A stretch of DNA of 64,000 bases, taken from positions 167,819 to 231,818 of the IMG/VR virus record IMGVR_UViG_3300031933_000215; one strand, written 5' to 3'. The stretch is from a virus. A program made the position numbers and the translations under genes. Positions within the stretch are counted from its first letter, which is position 1. Each line of letters begins with the position of its first letter. A model generated the notes under the pieces. That model worked only from the letters and a program-made list of their open reading frames with translations. It ran no database searches and was not told the DNA's origin. Below are positions 45,752 through 46,587 of the stretch, in pieces.

Positions 45752-45899
45752 CTTTTCCAGGGTATCCCCAATATTATGTCAGACCTGTCCTGACACGATC
45801 TTTTACAATTTGATTCGCGGACACACTCAGGCGGTTTTACCGTCCCAAGCATCTGCAAATACAGATGCGGTCTTTACGAAGGCCAAAACCACGGTAGCC

Positions 45900-45923
45900 C
45901 GGGCACCGCTTCGGCGGTGCCCG
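45900..45923 (+). terminator. Strong hairpin, probable terminator
   Basis: CGGGCACCGC-TTCG-GCGGTGCCCG, a perfect 10-bp GC stem with a TTCG loop, is followed by CTATTCCG, close to the CTATACCG variant of the common tail. It would separate the SLOG-gene transcript from the ribozyme RNA. Confidence 0.7.
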
Positions 45924-45968
45924 CTATTCCGTCACCCCATAAAAACTACCCCGGGTGTGATGGTATGT

Positions 45969-46038
45969 ACACGTCGTGTTATCTGATGAGTTCCCGACGT
46001 TAAAAGGAACGAAACTCCCACGGAGTCATAAGAGGCAC
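45969..46038 (+). ncRNA. Hammerhead ribozyme
   Basis: All hammerhead core elements are present in order: CUGAUGA (45983-45989); stem II GUUCC/GGAAC with an 11-base loop; GAA plus stem III ACUCC/GGAGU closed by a CAC triloop; and the cleavage triplet GUC ending at 46027. Stem I is formed by UUAU before the core (45979-45982) and AUAA after the cleavage site (46028-46031), with a possible further GUG/CAC helix beyond a bulge (45976-45978 with 46036-46038). Self-cleavage is predicted between C46027 and A46028. Its position upstream of a structured RNA suggests that it trims the 5' end of that transcript. Confidence 0.82.
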
Positions 46039-46320
46039 ATGCGCCTCCCTTCATCGAGTTTACGGTTGGAGATGTTAGGCACCTGCTGGGTGGTGTGATT
46101 GGTAGTCACACCGCTCGTAACCGTACGGGCGACGTACCTTACCAGTCGTCGCCAAGTTGTCGCTTGGGCTTATTCGTGCTAAACAAGGAACTATCCCTGA
46201 GCAGGCAGCCTGTAGGCGTTTTCTACAGCGCGGGTGATCCGGAGATCCGCCTCGAAACTCAAGACGCCTATGGGGTGCTTAAATGGCATCTTGGCCTGTC
46301 CTTCGGGGCAGGCCTCTATA
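46028..46320 (+). ncRNA. Structured RNA downstream of the hammerhead site
   Basis: From the predicted cleavage site to the terminator is about 290 bases of non-coding RNA. A long-range helix closes it: UUAGGCACC (46074-46082) with GGUGCUUAA (46275-46283), nine pairs including one G.U, extendable by GAUG/CAUC across a bulge. Inside are local hairpins GGUGUGA/UCACACC (46092-46112), GCUCGUA/UACGGGC (46113-46130) or the alternative GGCGAC/GUCGCC (46128-46153), CCAAG/CUUGG (46152-46167), and a GCGG/CCGC stem (46230-46250). It ends at the terminator. I do not recognise the RNA class. Confidence 0.6.
46293..46314 (+). terminator. Terminator of the structured RNA
   Basis: GGCCTGTCC/GGGCAGGCC, a 9-bp stem with one G.U, is followed by TCTATACCG, a variant of the phage terminator tail. 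Confidence 0.78.
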
Positions 46321-46344
46321 CCGCATCTGAACGAGGGTCACATC

Positions 46345-46587
46345 ATGGCTTTTATTGCAACGGTACAAATCTTGGTAGACGAGCCCACCGCCGCTGAGGC
46401 GCGTGAGAACTTGGAACAGCTGTTTGAATCCGCCCGGGTTACATCGGTAGATCAAACCGATGACGATCGAAACTGGTTGGTGGATTGGGTGTTTGACGAG
46501 GTCTACGCCGCTGGCGAAGATGTCGATGACGCCATCACCAACGACACTTACGAAGAAGGGGACGCGTTCGAAGGAATGGACGACTGA
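46345..46587 (+). CDS. Small acidic hypothetical protein
   Basis: This 80-residue acidic protein begins MAFIATVQILVDEPTAAEA, resembling a small ferredoxin-like fold with a helix (RENLEQLFESARV), and ends with EEGDAFEGMDD. The ATG follows ACGAGGGTCACATC. The longer frame from 46234 overlaps the structured RNA. Function unknown. Confidence 0.5.
   Translation: MAFIATVQILVDEPTAAEARENLEQLFESARVTSVDQTDDDRNWLVDWVFDEVYAAGEDVDDAITNDTYEEGDAFEGMDD

Follow-up and report, generated by a model that had tools for sequence, protein, structure and literature searches.

A pseudoknotted hammerhead ribozyme as the probable 5'-end processor of a structured non-coding RNA in jumbo phages

Most bacterial and phage hammerhead ribozymes have no known biological job, and a hammerhead in an intergenic region of a large phage genome raises the question of what it does there. 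The window, as we call the stretch of DNA analysed here, makes up the final 64 kb of a virus record of 231,818 bases. Judged by its encoded proteins, the source is a phiKZ-like jumbo phage: a structural protein of 683 amino acids shares 56-58% identity with proteins from phiKZ, Noxifer, PhiPA3 and phages related to these, and a thymidylate kinase is encoded near the locus, as in phiKZ and Noxifer.

Anatomy of the hammerhead

Direct reading of the sequence identifies a complete type III hammerhead at positions 45971-46031 on the plus strand, with the invariant core and three stems. Its parts are the following:

45971-45976 (+), ACGUCG, 5' strand of the pseudoknot between stem I and loop II (6-bp complementarity to 45995-46000; covariation in homologues)
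45979-45982 (+), UUAU, 5' strand of stem I (sequence; covariation)
45983-45989 (+), core CUGAUGA (sequence; CUGANGA is invariant in 17 homologues)
45990-46010 (+), stem II, GUUCC (45990-45994) with GGAAC (46006-46010), and loop II CGACGUUAAAA (double compensatory changes in 4/5 pairs)
45995-46000 (+), CGACGU, pseudoknot strand within loop II (pairing with 45971-45976; covariation)
46011-46013 (+), core GAA (sequence)
46014-46026 (+), stem III, ACUCC (46014-46018) with GGAGU (46022-46026), and loop CAC (sequence; covariation)
46027 (+), cleavage nucleotide C17; the cut is predicted to separate 46027 from 46028 (place of C17 in the fold)
46028-46031 (+), AUAA, 3' strand of stem I and predicted first bases of the released RNA (sequence; covariation)

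Stems I, II and III have 4, 5 and 5 base pairs, respectively, with stems II and III closed and stem I open. Together with CUGAUGA and GAA, the pair A46014-U46026 (A15.1-U16.1) and the NUH site at C46027 place the element in the type III class. In addition, the loop II segment CGACGU is complementary over six base pairs to ACGUCG, located just 5' of stem I. Contacts of this type between stem I and loop II are present in many natural hammerheads that cleave fast. Such pseudoknots are needed for fast cleavage in other, tested hammerheads (PMC3088659). We also considered pairing of GUG with CAC outside stem I, but preferred the pseudoknot and the hairpin at 46032 to it. The initial annotation had already placed the element in a jumbo phage, in agreement with the protein similarities, and the core, stems, CAC loop, cleavage triplet and C46027/A46028 site that it listed are all read directly as described, but it missed the pseudoknot.

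Two strong hairpins (45849-45868 and 45901-45922, the second terminator-like) follow a DprA-like gene just upstream of the hammerhead, and TATG is found at 45964-45967, also just upstream. The terminator-like hairpin and the TATG suggest that a transcript could start near the ribozyme, with only a short leader left to remove, which counts against a role of the ribozyme in trimming the RNA behind it.

Detection and covariation of the hammerhead

The hammerhead model of Rfam (RF00008), which the initial annotation had suggested running, gave a weak result of 17.5 bits (E 1.3) as compared to a gathering score of 48.5, a threshold that is a database cut-off and not a biochemical criterion. Clear homologues of the window hammerhead score 28-31 bits with the same model, likewise below 48.5, and RF00008 is thus a poor detector here, so that the weak score reflects the model. 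Nevertheless, the score far below the threshold and the length of stem I, only 4 bp in the window, count against a functional reading of the locus. No Rfam family matched in the window at the gathering threshold, and matches to isrK, SorY and ClpQY near the region were far below their thresholds and judged to be due to chance. Searches for relatives through the flanking proteins identified none in the viral_contigs set, and a blastn search of the window region against cultured phages gave no match.

Covariance support in related phages, which the initial annotation had also asked for, is strong. We aligned the paired segments of 17 phage homologues with the loops trimmed, moving the pseudoknot strands by hand by one position in five rows and leaving out one bulged stem II base in the row of Xanthomonas phage X1. 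In this alignment, 95.2% of the cells were paired, and changes on both sides were observed in 15 of the 17 pairs, in all three stems and in each of the four pseudoknot pairs counted. None of 500 shuffles matched the paired percentage, the double-change counts or the covariation score, and the signal collapsed when the pairing partners were slid by 1-3 columns. The later homologue searches left the stem II pairing unconstrained, and four of the five stem II pairs still change on both sides.

The two strands of the pseudoknot change in step between phages. While the window contains CGUCG/CGACG, the corresponding segments are CGUCU/AGACG in Erwinia phage AH06, CGUCC/GGACG in phage X1, GGCU/GGCC in the phiKZ-like L005 and AAGU/ACUU in L002. 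The rows retrieved by a search that required GUCG/CGAC add no support for the pseudoknot, since these letters were a search requirement; the support comes from L005, L002, L004, X1 and AH06, the last of which is outside the 17-sequence alignment.

The score of only 17.5 bits might be taken to mean that the locus is a chance match to a short motif. However, a stem descriptor identified no hammerhead-like match on either strand in 300 dinucleotide-preserving shuffles of the 64-kb window, the element recurs in the same position in other phages, and the covariation refutes chance, which makes this explanation hardly credible. A core pattern with an AAA loop identified 117 stretches, few of which fold as hammerheads, and the remainder were treated as chance.

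A structured RNA follows the predicted cut

The sequence downstream of the cleavage site, 46028-46318, is predicted to fold with -126.6 kcal/mol as compared to -101.6 kcal/mol for its shuffles (z -5.1), and none of 200 shuffles was as stable. The features of this RNA are listed below:

46028-46318 (+), structured non-coding RNA of about 290 nt, predicted product of the cut (folding z -5.1; homologous core in relatives)
46032-46047 (+), hairpin GAGGC/GCCUC directly 3' of the predicted cut (fold; hairpin likewise placed in ZC08, ZC03 and L194)
46068-46292 (+), multibranch domain with a closing helix of 46068-46083 and 46274-46292 (minimum-free-energy fold; similar helix in L005, L236 and L244)
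46092-46112 (+), hairpin P2 (fold)
46127-46153 (+), hairpin P3, directly before AAGUUGU (fold; hairpin and AAGUUGU also in L005, ZC08 and L236)
46154-46160 (+), conserved AAGUUGU (GUUGU can pair with GCAGC at 46205-46209)
46205-46278 (+), diagnostic core GCAGCC, hairpin P5, GGGGUGC (match to the core descriptor; P5 is long)
46293-46314 (+), terminator-like hairpin with CUCUAUACC behind it (sequence; hairpin and UUAUGCC-like tail also at the end of other members)

A kissing pair between the equivalent P2 and P3 loops is clear in L005. The UGGUA of the P2 loop region could also kiss the UACCA of P3 in the modelled window RNA, although only tentatively, because this is plausible only if weak pairs open. 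In the window (46293-46323), L103, L065, L236, L239 and L198, the terminator-like hairpin is succeeded not by a long run of U but by a YUUAUGCC-like tail, which may be characteristic of the terminators of the phage polymerase.

We consider it probable, on the basis of the sequence comparisons, that the hammerhead, locked by its pseudoknot at the 5' boundary of this non-coding RNA, matures the 5' end of the RNA. Upon transcription of the plus strand, the ribozyme would cut the precursor between C46027 and A46028 and thereby free an RNA that starts at 46028 with a defined 5'-hydroxyl end. The 3' end would be set by the terminator-like hairpin at 46293-46314 or, in relatives where the unit is located within tRNA operons, by processing of the next tRNA. 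The ribozyme would thus do for the phage RNA what RNase P does for tRNAs. Cleavage would presumably take place in the cell, the product would accumulate, and its function would depend on the cut.

Distribution of the ribozyme and the RNA among phages

Loci containing a hammerhead followed by a structured RNA were identified by pattern scans and blastn. The phiKZ-like carriers, metagenomic relatives among them, include L005/G004, L078/G005 and L103/G006 as well as Salmonella phage SA002 and Erwinia phages SNUABM_48 and SNUABM_37. The Erwinia Agricanvirus records, likewise phiKZ-like, number 17 in all, among them RAY, Ea35-70, Special G and AH06. Outside the phiKZ group, ZC03 and ZC08, Pseudomonas phages of 70 kb (Schitoviridae), contain the unit between tRNA genes, tRNA-Met and tRNA-Asn in the case of ZC03.

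We searched 1.8 Mb of sequence for the core of the RNA, described as GCAGCC, a hairpin with 10 bp or more and GGRRUGC, and allowed close variants of this pattern. Of the 23 matches, some of which represent overlapping loci, 22 are downstream of a hammerhead: the window, L005, L158, ZC03/ZC08/L194, the RAY-like set and L198/L204. The window segment 46205-46278 conforms to this pattern, which we propose as the mark of the family. Likewise, an alignment of SA002-type RNAs, including L198, folds with a P5-type core hairpin and contains 16 pairs with changes on both sides. It is a well-supported conclusion from these patterns that the core-bearing RNAs form one family, which falls short of proof because overall sequence identity across the branches is low; the homology of the whole RNA between the window and its relatives rests on short motifs and a shared architecture. 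The window-type RNA is apparently an undescribed family of structured RNAs in jumbo phages. The recurrent order of ribozyme and RNA in these relatives argues for the 5'-end processing of an adjoining structured RNA that the initial annotation had proposed.

The downstream gene bears on the question of whether the hammerhead instead acts in an mRNA leader, where it would cut the 5' region of a message or split off the DprA-like gene and thereby tune stability, the structured RNA being a long leader. In the window, the next plausible gene after the RNA is a small ORF at 46345-46587 with an ATG at 46345, and it has been proposed that hammerheads next to phage genes divide transcripts into mRNAs of gene length (PMC3088659). 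However, the terminator-like hairpin separates the RNA from this ORF, and the recurring element is the RNA itself, whereas the gene downstream of it differs among phages and is a tRNA in ZC03 and ZC08. Since the neighbour varies and can be a tRNA, cutting of a leader for the ORF is the less likely role, and we regard it as unlikely overall.

We regard it as very improbable that the unit is a circular or mobile RNA of the retrozyme or viroid type, with hammerhead ends ligated into a circle, or that it descends from one. Hammerheads are typical of RNA circles, and RNA ligases have been reported in jumbo phages (PMC13282480). Yet a pattern search identified one hammerhead only in the 231,818-base record, rather than two or one per repeat as in retrozymes, and each closely examined relative also has a single hammerhead, with a terminator or a tRNA at the other end. 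Furthermore, no flanking repeat or mobile gene was seen, and the position next to tRNAs is that of the GOLLD and ROOL RNAs.

The initial annotation was right about the hammerhead, the phiKZ-like host and 5'-end processing, but the notion that it touched on of hammerheads as a mark of the phiKZ group does not hold. Hammerheads also occur outside the group, in ZC03, ZC08 and X1, and pattern searches identified none in phiKZ, Noxifer, PA1C, Viktualia, Psa21 and nine further phages. These patterns, which could miss unusual hammerheads, expect stem II to begin with a G-C pair or a YGAAAC tail to be present. In 14 relatives without a hammerhead, GUUGU..GCAGCC was no more frequent than in a reversed control, and no core was present at the loci examined. 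A scan that ignored the hammerhead, with the pattern AAGTTGT..GCAGCCT..GGRGTGC, identified 16 stretches, four of which count as members by their hairpin. One is in L005; the others are in L236, L239 and L244, phiKZ-like jumbo phages of 228-232 kb in which no hammerhead accompanies the RNA. A promoter-like TTATGTATATAG stretch directly precedes the RNA in L236 and L244, and L239 has a similar TTATATG. A promoter-like stretch in place of the hammerhead is what one would predict for a ribozyme whose only task is to provide a 5' end. These relatives fit the simple reading that the RNA needs a defined 5' end, provided by a start site or by a ribozyme, although judged by their sequences they count as few independent events, and perhaps as a single one, since the three resemble each other.

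The same three relatives, which lost or never had a hammerhead, could also indicate that the window hammerhead, although genuine by ancestry, has no activity or can be dispensed with, and persists as a decaying remnant ahead of an RNA with its own promoter. The short stem I and the TATG at 45964-45967 are compatible with this, as are the poorly paired stem II of the RAY hammerhead and an insertion in phage XacN1, described below. In the window, however, the core positions, stems II and III and the 6-bp pseudoknot are all intact, and the stem and pseudoknot pairs have been kept by compensatory change across phages, and a remnant is therefore quite improbable.

Other RNA elements were observed in these sequences. 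SNUABM_48 (L142:699-802) and SA002 (L143:688-805) match the Y RNA-like YrlA at 41.9 and 32.3 bits, respectively, below the cut-off of 69 and about 3.3 kb from the hammerhead. The 61-kb viral contig L077 contains hammerhead-like elements at 462 and 763 (minus strand count); with a spacing of 300 nt on the same strand, the two could release a short RNA. A Pistol ribozyme (42.1 bits, above the threshold) is located at L003:7407-7472 (-) in a contig that also has a hammerhead.

Hammerheads in front of GOLLD and other large RNAs

Two metagenomic contigs found through their hammerheads, L002 and L004, contain a GOLLD RNA (202 and 190 bits, respectively) about 400 nt downstream. For an independent comparison, cultured phages were selected by similarity to the GOLLD region of L002 and L004, with no use of the hammerhead. 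Among these, the hammerhead before GOLLD in X1 is complete and includes a covarying pseudoknot of its own, XacN1 has an almost complete variant near GOLLD in which two additional bases precede stem II, and no hammerhead was identified in the GOLLD-bearing Phosso. The RF02032 scores of the five range from 179 to 227 bits, while the window region gave no match to RF02032 at E values up to 10. Six non-GOLLD contigs obtained in a GOLLD-motif scan were treated as chance.

The pseudoknotted hammerheads 5' of GOLLD (L231:1563-1640 and 2020-2449 in X1; L002:7050-7079 (-); L004:6537-6566 (-)) may indicate where the GOLLD RNAs behind them actually begin. XacN1 also contains a tmRNA match (L232:484-903; 108-123 bits, above the thresholds of both families), and its hammerhead-like element and GOLLD lie about 0.5 kb downstream of this match.

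Klebsiella phage Miami and similar records contain the same hammerhead, but with a longer and different RNA behind it. In Miami, a region of about 700 nt (L219:3003-3700) follows a hammerhead whose stem I matches that of the window; only small ORFs on the opposite strand are annotated there, and no Rfam family was identified in it. No hammerhead was identified at the abundant large non-coding RNA of ICP1. We give an even chance to a broader reading, a general system common to large phages. In this reading, several unrelated large structured RNAs (window-type, GOLLD and Miami RNA) would obtain their 5' ends from a pseudoknotted hammerhead, and in tRNA-rich regions ribozyme processing would take the place of promoters or protein nucleases in the production of stable non-coding RNAs.

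Comparison with known systems

The window ribozyme is a newly found example within the hammerhead class. It shares the core, the stem order, the cleavage site and the pseudoknot between the stem I region and loop II with the type III hammerheads of bacteria and phages (RF00008; Perreault et al. 2011, PMC3088659). While the known phage hammerheads are located near integrases, tail or ardA genes, or flank mRNAs (PMC3088659), this one is fixed to the 5' edge of a jumbo-phage non-coding RNA. Because the ribozyme is tied to a conserved RNA product, hammerhead function becomes directly testable.

Like GOLLD (RF02032) and ROOL, which are large structured phage RNAs of unknown function often near tRNA genes, the window RNA is a structured RNA of phages, but it is shorter than GOLLD (about 290 nt), has its own core of GCAGCC, hairpin and GGRRUGC, and matches no Rfam family at threshold. 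GOLLD itself is often found near tRNA islands and its function is a long-standing puzzle (PMC12286853), for which the hammerheads provide a candidate exact 5' end in some members. Cleavage of GOLLD is not discussed in the Nature 2025 paper on its structure (no 'cleav' in the text), and the pairing of a hammerhead with a jumbo-phage RNA family or GOLLD was not found in Rfam 15 or the literature searched, which covered few subscription papers and preprints, so an earlier report may exist.

The Theta ribozymes, which are HDV-like and found at the 3' ends of tRNAs in gut phages (PMC10879173), are likewise small self-cleaving ribozymes that process stable phage RNAs. They belong to another class and trim tRNA 3' trailers, whereas the window hammerhead would set the 5' end of an RNA that is not a tRNA. 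In this it resembles RNase P at tRNA 5' ends, where a single cut defines the 5' end of a stable RNA; unlike RNase P, the hammerhead is predicted to act in cis, to leave a 5'-hydroxyl and to need neither a protein nor a separate RNA.
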